From a virus: a stretch of 26,315 nucleotides of DNA. This document shows, in pieces, positions 2,797 to 24,844 of the stretch (positions are counted from its first letter, which is position 1; the number at the start of each line of letters is the position of its first letter). Under the pieces are notes generated by a model. That model did no database searches, was not told where the DNA came from, and worked only from the letters and a program-made list of their open reading frames with translations. A program made the translations under genes and the position numbers. The stretch spans positions 1 through 26,315 of IMG/VR virus record IMGVR_UViG_3300005452_000001; one strand, written 5' to 3'.

Positions 2797-2812
2797 TATA
2801 ATTTCACCTATG
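2797..2812 (+). promoter_or_regulatory. -10 box seven bases before ATG 2810 (leaderless start)
   Basis: A perfect TATAAT (2797-2802) is followed by exactly seven bases and then ATG 2810. No Shine-Dalgarno is present. Transcription from this box would begin at or next to the A of the start codon. No good -35 is visible. Confidence 0.55.
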
Positions 2813-3352
2813 AAACAGTGGAAAATTGAGAAAAGAAAAGTAAGTGAACTTAAATTCTACCCTGGTAACCCACGAAAAATTAGTAAAGAGATGTTAGAAA
2901 AACTTAAAAACAGTATTCGTGAGTTTGGAGCAGTGGAACCTTTGGTTATAAATCCCAGAAATGAGGTTATAGGTGGTAACCAACGATTAAAAGCCCTACG
3001 GGAACTCGGAATTGAGGAAGTGGATTGTATCGTTGTAGATTTACCGAAGTCAAAAGAAAAAGCACTTAATATTGCGTTAAATAAAATACAAGGCGAGTTT
3101 GATGAAGATTTATTAAGGTTATTCTTAATTGACATAGAACTACCAGATTTTGACTTAACTGGTTTAGAGGATGTTTTTAAAGAAAAATGCGGTAACATTG
3201 AGGAGTATTTTTCGGAAATTGAACCTAAGCCATACAAGAAGTTCCATATTTTGCTTTCGTTTGATATTGATGCTTACGTTAGACAGATAGACAAGATAAA
3301 CGAATTTATAAACTCTCTTGAGGGGGTAGAAGTTGAAAAGTCACAAAACTGA
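2810..3352 (+). CDS. ParB-like nuclease-domain protein
   Basis: The 180-residue product has a ParB/Srx-type domain over about residues 8-120, including the EFGAVEPLVI strand-turn and the GGNQR motif at 55-59. That motif is the nucleotide-binding signature of the family. The C-terminal third is not typical of chromosomal ParB, so a role in plasmid-style partitioning is doubtful. Stand-alone ParB domains next to phage methyltransferases are common. Here the neighbour downstream is a SAM methyltransferase-like gene that overlaps it by 20 bases. The start lacks a ribosome binding site and is probably leaderless. A second ParB domain occurs at 23579, fused to a DNA methyltransferase. Confidence 0.85.
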   Translation: MKQWKIEKRKVSELKFYPGNPRKISKEMLEKLKNSIREFGAVEPLVINPRNEVIGGNQRLKALRELGIEEVDCIVVDLPKSKEKALNIALNKIQGEFDEDLLRLFLIDIELPDFDLTGLEDVFKEKCGNIEEYFSEIEPKPYKKFHILLSFDIDAYVRQIDKINEFINSLEGVEVEKSQN

Positions 3353-3902
3353 TAATAGTCACTTTTGGGGTAAAGTTAGGTTAAGAGAAAAAATGATTGA
3401 AGACCTAAGCGAAATAAATGTTTTGGATTTATACAGTGGGTATGGGACCATTTGGAGTACCATTAAAGAAAGGAATAAAGATAAGAAAATAAATGTTACA
3501 TCAGTAGAGAAGGTTAAAGGTAAAAATCCAAATGCTATTTGTGCGGATGCTTTAAAACTTATTCCATCTTTGGATCTTAGTAGGTATGATGTTATAGACA
3601 TAGATGTTTACGGAAACCCATACAAACCACTTAAGGCTATTGTTAAGAATGGTAGTTTTAAGGATGGAGTTAATATTTTTTTAACGGACATTCGGATTGG
3701 TTATGGAGCGGTTCCAACTGAACTATTGCTTAGCCTTGGTTTTGCGGAGAAACAAATAAAGAAAGCACCAACTATTTTTTATAAGTTTGAACAATTGGCA
3801 ATTTTTAACTTCCTTTACGAACTTGGTGTTAAGAAAGTGTTGAAATTTCAGCCGACTTATAATAAAATTTATATAGGTTTTAAATTAAGGAGGTGTTTAT
3901 GA
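3333..3902 (+). CDS. SAM-dependent methyltransferase-like protein
   Basis: The start is TTG 3333, supported by GAGGGGGT seven bases upstream. The first in-frame ATG, at 3393, would cut into the N-terminus. The product (189 residues) shows a class-I methyltransferase motif I (VLDLYSGYGTIW), an acidic end of the next strand (TSVEK), and a DVIDIDVYGNPYKPL block. The D-x-D-x-YG-x-P pattern recalls Trm1-type tRNA guanine methyltransferases (D-x-D-P-x-G-x-P). It lacks a clear DPPY-type DNA methylase motif, so its substrate is unknown. It overlaps the ParB-like gene upstream by 20 bases and the radical-SAM gene downstream by 4, implying translational coupling. Confidence 0.7.
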   Translation: MKSHKTDNSHFWGKVRLREKMIEDLSEINVLDLYSGYGTIWSTIKERNKDKKINVTSVEKVKGKNPNAICADALKLIPSLDLSRYDVIDIDVYGNPYKPLKAIVKNGSFKDGVNIFLTDIRIGYGAVPTELLLSLGFAEKQIKKAPTIFYKFEQLAIFNFLYELGVKKVLKFQPTYNKIYIGFKLRRCL

Positions 3903-4732
3903 AGGTAATTTACGAACCAAAGGGGAGAGCTAGGGAATATGCCCCCCTAGCTGTCAACCTTTTTACTGGATGTACGCATGGCTGTAAGTATTGCTATGTT
4001 CCAAGAATTTTAAACAAATCTTACTCAGAGTACATTGTTTTTCAAAAAAAAGACAATATACTAAAAGATCTGGAAGAGGATTGTAAAAAATACTGTTGCT
4101 CAAAACTATATGTTCAGTTATCTTTCGTAGGGGACCCCTACGATGCAATGGATACGGAAGGAATAACAAGAGAGGCGCTAAAAATACTTTTAAGATACAA
4201 AATTCCAGTTTCAATACTAACCAAAGGTGGTAGTAGGCTATTAAGAGATTTGGATATATTTAAAAAGTTCGGAGAACACATAATAGTTGGACAAAGCTTG
4301 ACCTTTATATCCAAAGAAAAAAGCCTTAAGTGGGAACCTAACGCGGCGCTTCCAGAAGAAAGGATTGATACCTTCAAAATTCTAAAGGAAAATGGGATAA
4401 GAACATGGGCTAGCCTTGAGCCAACCATTGACCCAGAGGAAAGTTTGGAGTTAATAAAAAGAACCTTACCATATGTTGATTACTACAAGATGGGTAAGGT
4501 CAATCATATAGGCATAGAAAACAAAATAGACTGGAGATGGTTTGCAATTAGAGCAATCGAAATACTCAATGCTAATGGCAAAGACTTTTACATAAAAAAA
4601 GACTTAAGAGAGGCTAGCGGAGTTGAACATTTGTTAACCCCGAGACAAAAAGATCAGGACGACATGAAGGTTAAACCTTTCCCTTGTGAGCATTGCAACA
4701 AAAACGATAACAAAGATTTACTTTTGTTTTAG
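3899..4732 (+). CDS. Radical-SAM protein, spore-photoproduct-lyase-like subfamily
   Basis: The 277-residue product carries the radical-SAM cluster motif CTHGCKYC (C25, C29, C32), followed by YVP, in the style of SplB-like and related phage radical-SAM proteins. Such enzymes bind a 4Fe-4S cluster and split SAM to a 5'-deoxyadenosyl radical. A further CEHC near the C-terminus may bind a second metal. ATG 3899 is chosen because AAGGAGGT lies four bases upstream. A GTG six bases earlier would sit inside the ribosome binding site. It overlaps the methyltransferase-like gene by 4 bases. DNA or RNA modification is plausible from this cluster, but the substrate cannot be told from sequence. Confidence 0.88.
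   Translation: MKVIYEPKGRAREYAPLAVNLFTGCTHGCKYCYVPRILNKSYSEYIVFQKKDNILKDLEEDCKKYCCSKLYVQLSFVGDPYDAMDTEGITREALKILLRYKIPVSILTKGGSRLLRDLDIFKKFGEHIIVGQSLTFISKEKSLKWEPNAALPEERIDTFKILKENGIRTWASLEPTIDPEESLELIKRTLPYVDYYKMGKVNHIGIENKIDWRWFAIRAIEILNANGKDFYIKKDLREASGVEHLLTPRQKDQDDMKVKPFPCEHCNKNDNKDLLLF
3928..3952 (+). other. Perfect 8-bp hairpin at the start of the radical-SAM gene
   Basis: AGCTAGGG (3928-3935) pairs with CCCTAGCT (3945-3952) around nine bases, about 30 bases after the ATG. This is the same distance as in several early genes. Confidence 0.55.
4125..4143 (+). other. Perfect 19-bp near-palindrome in the radical-SAM gene
   Basis: TCGTAGGGG and CCCCTACGA form perfect nine-base arms around a single A at 4134. 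It lies in codons for the conserved SFVGDPYDA segment, so protein constraint may contribute. It could be a DNA-level protein binding site or an mRNA hairpin with a three-base loop. Confidence 0.5.
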
Positions 4733-4878
4733 TTTAATCTTTTTTCTAAAATAAACCTGTCTTTTACTTCTATTTTACTTGCTCATAACCTACCATATTA
4801 CTTTTTATTTCTTTCAATATACCATAACTAATCTTTTTATTACCTCAAACCACCGTAAAATCTTTTATTCTTTAATAT
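4733..4878. other. Pyrimidine-rich intergenic region before the terminase genes
   Basis: These 146 bases are strongly C/T-biased on the plus strand, with almost no G. I see no open frame, no clear terminator hairpin and no Shine-Dalgarno for the following gene. A poor -10-like TATTCT (4866-4871) ends seven bases before ATG 4879, the same geometry as the better boxes at 2797 and 23566. A packaging-initiation site next to terS would be expected hereabouts in a headful phage, but nothing in the sequence proves it. Confidence 0.4.
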
Positions 4879-5247
4879 ATGCGTAGTGAGAAAAAAGACA
4901 TAATAAAACGACAGATTTTGGAAGCACTAGGCAGTGGACTACCACGCTATAAGGCTTGTGAAAGTGTTGGAATATCTCTATCAACTTTTTACCGTTGGCT
5001 AAACCAGGATAAAAAATTTGCTAGAGAAGTGGCTGAAGCGGAAGAGGTAGCGGTGATGCTAGTAGAAGATGCTTTGTATGCTAAAGCAATAAAGGGAGAT
5101 GTAAGAGCTATGATTTTCTTTTTAACCAACCGAAGACCGAACCGTTGGAAAGTTGCAGGTAATGAGTTAGCAAGTGGCGAGGAAAGGAAAATTGTTTTTG
5201 AGGTGGTAGATGCAAGAAGTGAGAGTGAAAGTAACGAGGCTGTTTAG
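4879..5247 (+). CDS. terS: Terminase small subunit
   Basis: The 122-residue product begins with a helix-turn-helix over about 8-45 (GLPRYKACESVGISLSTFYRWL), the DNA-recognition fold of small terminase subunits. A helical oligomerisation region follows at about 50-90, then a variable acidic tail. TerS binds the packaging site on phage DNA and hands it to TerL. It lies directly upstream of TerL, whose start it overlaps by 38 bases. It has no ribosome binding site and is a candidate leaderless gene. Confidence 0.85.
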   Translation: MRSEKKDIIKRQILEALGSGLPRYKACESVGISLSTFYRWLNQDKKFAREVAEAEEVAVMLVEDALYAKAIKGDVRAMIFFLTNRRPNRWKVAGNELASGEERKIVFEVVDARSESESNEAV

Positions 5248-20810: not shown

Positions 20811-21042
20811 AATATTCTCGAGGAAATTTTTTGTTTTTGTTGTTAACTTTATTAGTGCTTTCTTTCTTAAGTATTTTTCCAAAATTAGTGATGAAACTTA
20901 TTTAATAATTGTTCTTTCCGTTTCTCTTGTGTATCTTTTCGTGGAGGGGGTTTTAGATTTAAAAAGTTTAAGTATCAAAACAAATAGTCTTAATCTTAAG
21001 TTTAAGGAGGGTGAAGATGTGGACTATAAAAAAGATAGCTAG
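20788..21042 (+). CDS. Two-membrane-segment holin candidate
   Basis: The 84-residue product has hydrophobic segments at about 12-28 and 37-53 joined by a short loop, a basic N-terminus, and a charged soluble C-terminus. That is class-II holin topology. It overlaps the XhlA-like gene by 23 bases and the HTH gene by 26, and lacks its own ribosome binding site, so translation is probably coupled. XhlA-type proteins typically have a holin partner next door, which supports this call. Confidence 0.65.
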   Translation: MFYPRLSKIFSRKFFVFVVNFISAFFLKYFSKISDETYLIIVLSVSLVYLFVEGVLDLKSLSIKTNSLNLKFKEGEDVDYKKDS

Positions 21043-21604
21043 CATGTTAAGTGTTTCACATAACACTGTTAGGAAAGTAGTAAAAGAGATGTTCCCAGAA
21101 AAGATTAAAAACGGTGTCACAACAGTATTAAATGACGAAGAACTAGTAAAAGTTATAAGCGAAGTTAAACACAGAGGAATTATAAATCTTAATAGCAACC
21201 TTACCAAAACTGGTAAGGTAGATAAGGCTAACCTTACCAAAATTGGTAAGGTGGATGAACAACTGGCAAAACTGGAAAGGATGACCGAAAACATGGTTGT
21301 TTTGGCTAAGGAACTTTCCTACATGTTAAACAAGGCATTTTCTTATTCCGAAAGACTACTACTAAAGGAAAACAACAATCTGCCAAATCCACGAAAAGAA
21401 ATTTGGGAGGCGGTGAATGACTTTAAGCATGTAAACGGTTTAGATAGTGCTAGTAGGGATATACTACTAGATTTAGCGGAGAAATATCAAAAGGAAACAG
21501 GTAATGTAATAAAAACTAATAATGATTACGAAGCGATAATAAGAAACCTAATTCTTAAAAACAAAGTTAGCGACTTCGTTAGGTGGGTCAGGAACAGACT
21601 ATGA
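21017..21604 (+). CDS. HTH DNA-binding regulator, 195 aa
   Basis: ATG 21017 has AAGGAGG six bases upstream, so it is preferred over GTG 21011. Residues 1 to about 45 form a MerR-like or excisionase-like helix-turn-helix (WTIKKIASMLSVSHNTVRKVVK). The middle carries an 11-residue tandem duplication (NLTKTGKVDKA, then NLTKIGKVDEQ), then a coiled coil. The C-terminal 75 residues form a separate helical domain. This head-coil-tail layout resembles phage antirepressor or regulator proteins. It is the clearest DNA-binding regulator in the genome, and a candidate binder of the five-copy element or of its own internal dyads. Confidence 0.7.
   Translation: MWTIKKIASMLSVSHNTVRKVVKEMFPEKIKNGVTTVLNDEELVKVISEVKHRGIINLNSNLTKTGKVDKANLTKIGKVDEQLAKLERMTENMVVLAKELSYMLNKAFSYSERLLLKENNNLPNPRKEIWEAVNDFKHVNGLDSASRDILLDLAEKYQKETGNVIKTNNDYEAIIRNLILKNKVSDFVRWVRNRL
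21199..21251 (+). repeat. Two tandem perfect dyads inside the regulator gene
   Basis: CCTTACCA-AAAC-TGGTAAGG (21199-21218) recurs as CCTTACCA-AAAT-TGGTAAGG (21232-21251), 33 bases on, or about three helical turns. Each is a perfect 8-bp dyad with a four-base centre. They encode the 11-residue duplication. I found no further copy elsewhere in the genome. Confidence 0.75.
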
Positions 21605-22400: not shown

Positions 22401-22727
22401 ATGCTAGTAGTCTATTTAGCACATAAATTCAACATGGAAAAGTGGCGTGTGGAAGAGATAAGGGATTTTATCGTTAAGGCTTATCAGGTTAGAAAAGACA
22501 TTGTAATAATTAACACACCAATTCTGTTTGGCTGGAGTGGAATAAGTGAAAAACAAGCAATAAAGAAGAGTTTAAAACTCTTAAGTTTATGCGATGTTGT
22601 TTGGGTTTATGTATTTAGCAAAACAGATTTTTTCACAAGTAAAGGACTAAAGAAGGAATTAAGACTTGCTAGAATGTTACATAAACCTGTTAAGATAATA
22701 ACAAGTGTGGAAGACATAAAAACTTGA
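22401..22727 (+). CDS. DUF4406 / nucleoside 2-deoxyribosyltransferase-like protein
   Basis: The 108-residue product opens with the strand VVYLAHKF and ends with a DVVWVYVFSK...SKGLKKELRLARMLHKPVKII pattern. This matches the Rossmann-like DUF4406 and nucleoside-deoxyribosyltransferase fold: an acidic residue after the third strand and an S-x-G-x3-E helix. These may act on nucleotides or nucleotide-derived signals, but phage members are uncharacterised. It has no ribosome binding site. The ATG follows the previous stop by 3 bases, so reinitiation or a transcript from the element at 22281 may serve it. Confidence 0.7.
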   Translation: MLVVYLAHKFNMEKWRVEEIRDFIVKAYQVRKDIVIINTPILFGWSGISEKQAIKKSLKLLSLCDVVWVYVFSKTDFFTSKGLKKELRLARMLHKPVKIITSVEDIKT

Positions 22728-22734
22728 TAAAACT

Positions 22735-23265
22735 ATACATTTTTAGCCATTTTTGTTACCAGGAATGCTTATTTCTCCATCAAAAAAATGCTAGTTTTTT
22801 ATATCAAAATTAAGCGTTTTTTAATCATTTTTAGTGGTTTTTATCACCAAAAAGTATTAAAAAAGCGTTAAAAAATGCGTATTTTTCTTATCAAAAAGTG
22901 GCTATTTTTTAACTATTTTTAACATCAAAAAACTACTCAAAAACTATCAAAAAATATCAATTTTCCTATCAAAAATGAGCGATTTTTTAACATTTTTTGA
23001 CTATTTTTCTATATCTAAAAGTGTTCAAAAATCTTATTAAAAAGTGGCGTTTTTTGGCATTTTTGAGGGGGTTTTTTGCACAAAATCGGGGGTTTTTGGT
23101 GAGATTTACGGTAATATAATATCTATATATATTTATATAATAATATTATTATATACCGAAAATCTGTTCAAAAAATATAGGTTTTTGTGTAAAAAAAATA
23201 GGGTATTTTTTATCAAAAAAGCGGGGTTTTTGTTAAGATTTTTAACACTTTTTTTACTCTTAAAA
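22735..23265. other. Non-coding region with helically phased A/T tracts (curved DNA, candidate origin)
   Basis: From about 22740 to 23097 I count 32 runs of four to seven A or T (one of them only three). Their centres (22742, 22752, 22773, 22785, 22797, 22807, 22819, 22830, 22840, 22851 and so on to 23095) average about 11.0 bp apart. The series resumes at 23172-23264. A or T on either strand bends DNA the same way, so this predicts strong intrinsic curvature. No convincing gene is present: the open frame at 23044-23301 is a by-product of the tracts and has no ribosome binding site. Curved DNA next to an easily melted segment is typical of replication origins. Confidence 0.75.
23112..23155. 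other. A/T-only segment with a 22-bp perfect palindrome (unwinding element candidate)
   Basis: Of 44 bases only one (C at 23123) is not A or T. Its right half, 23134-23155, is a perfect palindrome with 11-base arms centred between 23144 and 23145. It sits between the two phased A-tract series. It could be where strands open or where a cruciform forms. Confidence 0.65.
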
Positions 23266-23285
23266 GTCTTTACAAATGTTTATTT

Positions 23286-23301
23286 AATCATCCATAATTA
23301 A
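23286..23301 (+). repeat. 16-bp direct repeat upstream of gene 23322
   Basis: AATCATCCATAATTAA is identical to 6378-6393. It contains CATAAT (23293-23298), which could be a -10 box giving a leader of about 17 bases for gene 23322. Confidence 0.6.
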
Positions 23302-23321: not shown

Positions 23322-23543
23322 ATGGAGAAAATTTGTAGGAATTGTAAGTTTTGGAACAGTAAAGGGCAGTTTTGGGACTGGATGAAAATTCCAGTAACTG
23401 TGGGGGACTGTGAAATGATTTTAACTTATGTTAGTAGAAATATGCCAAGTGATAGAATTATAGCGATGTCGGAAACTATGTTTGTTGCTTTTACTGGTGA
23501 AAACTTCGGCTGTATTCATTTTCAACCAAGAGAAAACAAATAA
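23322..23543 (+). CDS. Small Cys-rich, probably zinc-binding protein
   Basis: The 73-residue product has a CRNCKFW motif at the start, then GDCEM and FGCIHF. This makes four cysteines in the pattern C-x2-C...C...C that recurs in small phage proteins of unknown role. A zinc ribbon or knuckle is likely. G-run Shine-Dalgarno upstream of ATG 23322. It sits between the origin-like region and the ParB-methyltransferase. Confidence 0.75.
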   Translation: MEKICRNCKFWNSKGQFWDWMKIPVTVGDCEMILTYVSRNMPSDRIIAMSETMFVAFTGENFGCIHFQPRENK

Positions 23544-23565: not shown

Positions 23566-23581
23566 TAAAATAAATGTTATG
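23566..23581 (+). promoter_or_regulatory. -10-like box seven bases before ATG 23579
   Basis: TAAAAT (23566-23571), seven bases, then ATG. The gene has no Shine-Dalgarno. It has the same spacing as 2797-2812. Confidence 0.5.
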
Positions 23582-24844
23582 GCTTTGGAAATAGTTTATG
23601 TTAGTGCTAATGAGTTAAGAGAAAGTGAGTATAACCCCCGTAGATTCCCGAAAGAAACAAAAGATAAACTTAAGGAAAGCATTAAAAAATTCGGTTTCGT
23701 TAACCCCTTGATTGTCAACTCTAACCCCGAAAGAAAAAACATCGTAATCGGCGGGCACTTTAGGCTTTTGGTTGCAAAAGAACTAGGTATTAAAGAAGTT
23801 CCAGTCGTTTATGTTAATGTGGATAAGGAAAAAGAGAAAGAGTTAAGCTTAAGACTAAACCGTAACACTGGTGAATGGGACTGGAAATTGTTAAGAATGT
23901 TTGAAAGTGATTTTTTAAAAAGAATTGGCTTTTCGGATAGAGATTTGGAAAAGATTTTCACAAGAACGAGAAAGGTATTAAGTAAAGATTTTATCGTTCC
24001 GCCGTTATCGGTTCTGGATGCTAGGAAGCAAACATGGATAACAAGAATGACAGAATGGGAAGAACTCGGGTTTGATGGAACAAAAGGAAGACCAACGAAG
24101 CTCTTAGGGATTTCTAAGCAAGTTGGTGGCGGTGAAGGAACTTCCAAGTTTGACCCAGTATTGGCGGAGATTTGTTATAGGTGGTTCAATACTGAAAATG
24201 GTATTATTTTGGACCCGTTTTCTGGTGGTGTTACGAGGGGGTTTGTTGCTGGCTATCTTGGATACGAATATTGGGGAGTTGATATAAGCGAAGAACAGAT
24301 AAAAGCGAACTTGGAGCAGGTAGAAGAGTTACAGCATTTACTAAAAGTAAAACCTAAATACATTATTGGCGATAGTTATGAAATAGATAATCTTATCCAA
24401 AAACGTGAATTTGATTTAATTTTTACATGCCCGCCCTACTTTGATTTGGAACGTTACACTGATAACCCGAATGACTTAAGTAACATGAGCTGGGAGAGAT
24501 TTAGAGAAAGATATAAAGCAATAATTAAAAAATCCTGCGACTTATTAGCGGAAAATAGGTTTGCTGTGTTTGTTGTGTCAGAGGTTAGAGACAGGGACGG
24601 GGTTTATAGAGGACTAGTGGAACTAACAAAAGAAGCATTTAGAGAAGCGGGGTTAAAATTCTACAATGATATTGTTTATCTTAACGCAGTAGGAAATGCA
24701 GCAGTTCGTGCTAGAAAACAAATGAAAACAAGGAAAGTCGTTAAAGTGCACCAAAATATTTTGGTTTTCTATAAGGGTGATACGGAAAGAATAATGGAAT
24801 TTTTCGGGGAAATAAAAAACGAAAGTGATGAGGAAGATTATTAA
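23579..24844 (+). CDS. ParB-domain / DNA adenine or cytosine-N4 methyltransferase fusion
   Basis: The 421-residue product has two domains. Residues about 5-110 are a ParB-type domain with GGHFR at 58-62. Residues about 145-410 are a DNA methyltransferase with the SAM-binding motif DPFSGG at 212-217, an acidic GVDIS at 233-237, and the catalytic motif TCPPY at 283-287. Motif order (SAM site before TCPPY) is that of gamma-like amino-methylases. It would methylate an exocyclic amino group of adenine or cytosine; the target sequence is unknown. No restriction enzyme is next to it, so it probably protects the phage from host enzymes or marks its DNA. The fusion itself is known in other phages. Confidence 0.88.
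   Translation: MALEIVYVSANELRESEYNPRRFPKETKDKLKESIKKFGFVNPLIVNSNPERKNIVIGGHFRLLVAKELGIKEVPVVYVNVDKEKEKELSLRLNRNTGEWDWKLLRMFESDFLKRIGFSDRDLEKIFTRTRKVLSKDFIVPPLSVLDARKQTWITRMTEWEELGFDGTKGRPTKLLGISKQVGGGEGTSKFDPVLAEICYRWFNTENGIILDPFSGGVTRGFVAGYLGYEYWGVDISEEQIKANLEQVEELQHLLKVKPKYIIGDSYEIDNLIQKREFDLIFTCPPYFDLERYTDNPNDLSNMSWERFRERYKAIIKKSCDLLAENRFAVFVVSEVRDRDGVYRGLVELTKEAFREAGLKFYNDIVYLNAVGNAAVRARKQMKTRKVVKVHQNILVFYKGDTERIMEFFGEIKNESDEEDY

Follow-up and report, generated by a model that had tools for sequence, protein, structure and literature searches.

An array of helically phased A/T runs around an AT-rich dyad: a possible early control region and replication origin of a tailed phage

Bent DNA is a known kind of element, and several described systems come close to the array reported here. 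The bent region of the Crithidia kinetoplast minicircle, said to have been described by Marini et al. in 1982, is reportedly strongly curved natural DNA that is built from A runs in helical phase and lies in a non-coding part with a control role; it is shorter (about 18 tracts) and mitochondrial, has its tracts on one strand and is not known to have a central dyad. In pT181 cmp and the lambda origin, bent DNA adjoins an inverted repeat or an AT-rich unwinding region, as it does here, but the bends are far shorter and come with a known initiator and iterons, none of which was recognised in our sequence. In phage phi29, helical phase in the p6 complex is reported to organise the phage DNA and to affect the start of replication and early/late transcription (PMC10899789), although there an abundant phage protein wraps the DNA in a right-handed superhelix, and no p6 homologue was identified in the window. 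Bacterial genomes carry a genome-wide 11-bp AT periodicity (the "structural code") of the same period as our array; such a period, ~11 bp, is usually linked to the helical pitch of DNA under negative supercoiling, and phased AT runs have been reported in plectoneme loops (PMC4132750), but that signal is weak, dispersed and statistical, whereas ours is one compact, nearly perfect array. The supercoiling reading of genome-wide periodicity has been challenged, periodicity being argued not to serve bending (PMC7537859), curvature alone may be insufficient for the formation of superhelical apices (PMC8478907), and it is disputed whether curvature is what natural phased A-tracts are selected for or whether they simply follow from base composition. 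Large phages are said to be generally without a periodic signal (PMC3431218), and it is in this group of viruses that we found the array, an unusually long, shape-conserved form of bent DNA.

The window analysed here is the whole of IMG/VR record IMGVR_UViG_3300005452_000001, 26,315 bases of a tailed phage (terminase, portal, capsid, tape measure and endolysin genes) whose genes all lie on the + strand. Three related contigs from other metagenomes, G002, G003 and G004, have their gene order in common with it and encode terminases with 88%, 72% and 94% identity to its own, respectively. Because the contig ends of these relatives fall at differing places with respect to the window, we read the four genomes as circular permutations. 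Similar DNA was present in none of the annotated phages, and a terminase scan across genomes for the host returned Helicobacter as its sole match (25%). The array fills the largest intergenic gap of the window (594 bp, the next largest being 231 bp), in keeping with the description of this region in the sequence-only reading as the only long non-coding one. Its features are listed in Table 1. An array was found at the equivalent place in G004 (L047 3760-4370), G002 (L052 5740-6235) and G003 (L005 about 4700-5140).

Table 1. Features of the array region and of neighbouring genes in the window
Feature	Position	Strand	Remarks
Winged-helix plus coiled-coil DNA-binding protein	21011..21604	+	Candidate array binder; fold-level resemblance only
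Last gene left of array	22401..22727	+	Weakly like nucleoside deoxyribosyltransferase (phrog_355, 4.7e-06); neighbour conserved
Left arm	22718..23097	.	33 phased A or T runs of at least 4; about 380 bp
AT-rich dyad, imperfect inverted repeat	23102..23165	.	Outer arms GATTTACGGTA / TATACCGAAAATC; between long left and short right arm
A/T-only core of dyad	23124..23155	.	32 bp, longest A/T-only stretch of genome; candidate unwinding element
Right arm	23159..23265	.	10 phased A or T runs; about 105 bp; vector strength 0.93
Sigma-70-like promoter TTTACA-18-CATAAT	23269..23298	+	Reads into early genes; 10 of 12 consensus
First gene right of array	23322..23543	+	Small Cys-rich protein; kept in G002 and G004
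ParB_N domain fused to DNA methyltransferase	23579..24844	+	

Between positions 22718 and 23290 we counted 43 A or T runs of at least four bases, in agreement with the roughly 40 tracts at ~11 bp noted from the letters. With all runs listed, the steps from run to run measured 9-14 bp and were interrupted only at 22752-22773 and by the dyad. The longest unbroken chain comprised 29 runs (22782-23097; mean spacing 11.07 bp, sd 0.95), against 4 in the rest of the window, leaving aside pieces of the array region. Random AT-rich DNA had been expected not to hold phase in this way, and indeed the longest chain in 5000 composition-matched first-order Markov sequences averaged 2.8 and never exceeded 9. 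For the left arm of the window the best single period was 11.10 bp with a vector strength of 0.91. Permuted spacings matched the observed vector strength in 1.4% of trials for the window, 0.05% for G002 and 1.2% for G004, three tests that are not independent as the genomes are kin; adjacent spacings were anticorrelated (-0.57 in the window, and about -0.5 to -0.6 across the window, G002 and G004). From the permutation test and this negative correlation, it follows that the runs sit on a lattice, beyond merely having similar gaps. The phase had been described as resuming after an A/T-only segment; this stood, with the right arm offset from the left by -0.01 turn in the window (0.12-0.15 turn in the three relatives), and the bounds of the segment were corrected to those in Table 1. 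The motif flanking the runs was weak, the units being unlike outside the run, and we therefore count no iterons. An open reading frame at 23044-23301 was rejected as protein-coding, since single-base indels in the tracts of the relatives break its frame.

Curvature was predicted using a simple wedge table. By this table, the array had the highest predicted curvature in each genome, which upheld the curvature proposed from the letters, and its ratio of contour to end-to-end distance was 1.92, compared with 1.48 elsewhere and rising to 8.5 at a helical repeat of 11.0. The array has two marks of intrinsically curved phased A-tract DNA, namely A/T runs of at least four bases at the helical repeat and, on the wedge table, predicted curvature well above the remaining genome. 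A tract-only model scanned over the helical repeat was most compact at 11.1 in the window and G004, at 11.3 in G002 and at 10.8 in G003, which in such a model would be the peak expected of negatively supercoiled DNA. The ratio of end-to-end distance to contour in the left arm of the window was 0.14 at a repeat of 11.1 versus 0.52 at 10.5, so that the gentle superhelix previously suggested would apply to relaxed DNA (repeat 10.5), but at 11.1 the left arm would curve most strongly. A period tuned in this manner offers a readout of how phage DNA is supercoiled inside a host that has not been cultured.

We then compared the arrays base by base, taking the tracts of the window as the tract set. 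Tract positions differed from G002 at 10 of 171 (6%) and spacer positions at 93 of 244 (38%); the corresponding counts for G004 were 3 of 181 and 32 of 257, and at fourfold sites of the terminase gene 47% differed from G002 and 27% from G004. Pair by pair, no fewer than 32 of the 36-37 tracts met a tract on the same strand, with the rest mostly in gaps and none flipped, a count to be read with the caveat that an aligner may tend to pair tracts with one another. Relative to the window, the longer gaps measured 11, 14, 11 and 34 bases in G002 and 22 in G004, long indels being mostly close to whole helical turns. In G003 (50% GC) the array is built of CTTCAAATTTG- and GAAATTTCAAC-like units, i.e. 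A3T3-type runs, and has a phase score of 13.9, compared with at most 8.3 in other terminase relatives. Conservation in relatives shows that the feature is under selection, and since the GC-richer G003 shares the phase only, using other tracts, DNA shape is the selected trait: the four-relative comparison indicates that evolution preserves the bend rather than the letters, its purpose probably being control of either replication start or early gene expression. These genomes form a clean natural experiment, with tracts and phase kept, spacers free and one genome rebuilt with other tracts, by which the role of DNA shape becomes testable in a single 500-bp fragment. When an 18-base motif beside the dyad was used as a query for further relatives, the matches beyond G002 and G004 were without a phased array, and a weak A-tract cluster in L017-L019 (terminase relatives at 41%) was not convincing as an array.

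The dyad of the window folds at -10.9 kcal/mol (z -3.6), and the homologous dyads gave z values of -6.6 (G004), -6.8 (G002) and -9.7 (G003). Its letters largely differ between genomes, except in the pair of the window and G004, where we observed a compensatory change (a G-C pair in one, A-T in the other, altered on both sides) and one pair broken in the window. In G002 and G003 no other gapless palindrome of the genome is as strong, which does not hold for the window or G004. On these comparisons, the dyad is conserved as a structure. No intrinsic terminator, with its G+C-rich stem and trailing T run, was found in the region, Rfam gave no match to a known RNA above noise, and a telomere-resolution palindrome was set aside, no protelomerase-like gene having been noticed among the annotated genes.

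Our tentative reading is that this tailed phage has here an early control element coded by DNA shape, and that the element is most likely the replication origin. We infer a loop, an opening dyad and a role in replication, which would work as follows. In negatively supercoiled DNA with a helical repeat of about 11 the arms would curve strongly, by which the element could pin a plectoneme at its terminal loop; the AT-rich dyad, thereby presented, would then open or extrude easily, and the opened dyad could serve as a site for the replication machinery and also aid the adjacent early promoter. Bend-binding proteins, either HU-like or the winged-helix/coiled-coil protein of the phage, may stabilise the loop. 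What the sequences show is the phase, its conservation, the dyad, the promoter-like sequence and the position. In favour of the reading are a phase far beyond chance, an architecture and place shared by four genomes, tracts kept better than spacers, a predicted curvature that is highest at the array, the conserved dyad and promoter, the position upstream of the early genes, the reported occurrence of phased AT runs in plectoneme loops and the gene at 320-1129, a homologue of which belongs to the recombination/replication module in Geobacillus virus E2. The imperfection of the dyad in the window counts against it. Among the usual components of phage replication origins, an AT-rich unwinding element is present (the A/T-only core), and initiator binding sites are absent, with neither iterons nor DnaA boxes in the array region. 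The GC-skew check that had been put forward for an origin did not bear it out, third-position skew having no consistent sign change; such a switch in strand composition is not expected under one-directional replication. The early module follows the array, but among the window's genes none was recognised as encoding an initiator, helicase, primase or polymerase, and a 350-aa early protein (1651-2703) was rejected as initiator after a structure search whose PDB matches were uninformative. It is doubtful that the element is coded by shape alone, with more than 40 phased tracts, phase selected over 500 bp, free letters and tuning to the underwound pitch of supercoiled DNA in the host; if it is, the element would work only on a negatively supercoiled genome and thereby sense topology.

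Control of the early promoter is the nearest rival, scaffold and packaging functions being less likely. Here the array would be a topological regulator, its curved DNA binding RNA polymerase alpha subunits or HU and storing supercoiling to drive early transcription or set its timing, with no replication role, and we regard this as unlikely. The sequence-only reading was incomplete in missing both the dyad and the conserved sigma-70-like promoter. The promoters of the relatives, at the equivalent place, all have an 18-bp spacer (TTTACA-18-CATAAT, TTTACA-18-TATTAT and TTGATA-18-TATAAT), and the weight of the promoter call rests on this conservation, because consensus matches are no commoner in the region than in shuffles. 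In each of the four genomes a promoter lies at the array's right end or near it (directly adjoining the right arm in three, ~55 bp further on in G003), and the right arm falls at roughly -35 to -145 in the AT-rich trio; however, the left arm reaches about 550 bp upstream, far past the range of RNA polymerase, and the conserved dyad 130-170 bp upstream is left unexplained.

It is improbable that the array is a scaffold or centromere on one face of which a phage protein polymerises, with one unit at each helical turn, so as to anchor or segregate the genome or make it compact. The gene for the winged-helix/coiled-coil protein, which lies 1.1 kb upstream and is kept by all four genomes, would suit this, and the best fold matches of its product include the centromere-binding (DNA-binding) domain of pSK1 Par and RacA besides MerR, but they are weak (none at E<0.001, with E of about 0.1 and above) and of a sort that MerR-like folds in general would give. 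Likewise, the window, G004 and G003 each encode a ParB-domain protein downstream (in G003 the array is followed by the ParB_N part alone, which is absent at that place in G002), but ParA, ParM and TubZ were not recognised and no ParR/ParM operon was found among the flanking genes using Pfam, PHROGs and NCBIfam. A and T runs are mixed over both strands at random with a weak consensus, unlike the one-orientation direct repeats of ParR/parC-type centromeres with 11-bp repeats. Finally, genome G005 (contig L066) keeps the left-hand genes including the winged-helix protein, and no array was found on its contig.

Many pac sites, though not all, lie in terS, and those of some phages have bent DNA. 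The array might be a packaging initiation site whose bend is recognised by the terminase small subunit. We consider this very improbable: the place of a pac/cos site, adjoining or within the gene for the terminase small subunit and at genome ends, is not that of the array, the contig ends are not at the array, and its position tracks the early genes. Since it lies where the late genes end and the early genes begin, adjoins a conserved promoter, is 8 kb from the terminase genes on the circle and contains a dyad, an origin or early control is likelier than a packaging site. Of the sequence-only reading, the long-range phase and the predicted curvature were confirmed; it named an origin, a packaging signal or a scaffold with no choice among them, and none of the three functions is proven. 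That the array has no function, its period being maintained by slippage of an AT-rich 11-bp tandem repeat, is barely credible, for although near-perfect 11-bp A-tract tandem repeats occur in some unrelated viral contigs and several array indels are close to multiples of 11, the units differ outside the tract, tracts are far better conserved than spacers, G003 holds phase with different tracts at 50% GC and the phase is locked beyond permuted spacings.

To look for other arrays, we scanned 2.9 million viral contigs for sets of four A5 runs spaced exactly 11 bp apart, yielding 102 stretches; this is no census, because the A5 pattern misses mixed arrays like that of the window. A few of the stretches lay in intergenic arrays that were 100-220 bp long and unrelated in origin, several of them tandem repeats, and no fetched match equalled the phase score of the window array (17.4), save one relative of the window. 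Six loci on unrelated viral contigs (L078, L112, L136, L158, L122 and L168) resemble it in that their A/T runs recur near 10.5-11.1 bp and lie between genes or nearly so, but differ in that the phased stretch is 100-220 bp and, except in L078, consists largely of near-identical tandem units. L112 (5300-5520) and L136 (520-740), on contigs that look mutually related, carry near-identical A-tract units (TTTTTACGAAA and complement), and L168 (6294-6442) and L148 (4747-4884) about 8 perfect 11-bp units GCGATTTTTCT between divergent gene blocks, adjoining a ClpP-like gene. In L078 (8420-8640), A/T runs phased near 10.5 bp lie directly upstream of an apparent uvrC, on a contig that may be bacterial chromosome.

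The site left of the array takes up cargo in G004, where a tRNA-Asp (ARAGORN) and a second tRNA-like sequence lie directly beside it (L047 3370-3760). In G003 a QueC-like gene (7-deazaguanine synthesis, named from its translation) occupies the minus strand directly left of the array (L005 3885-4577). Two ParB-domain proteins occur within the one 26-kb phage of the window, at 2810-3352 and in the methyltransferase fusion at 23579-24844, and its early region further encodes a radical SAM protein of the PA0069/Rv2578c kind (3893-4732).
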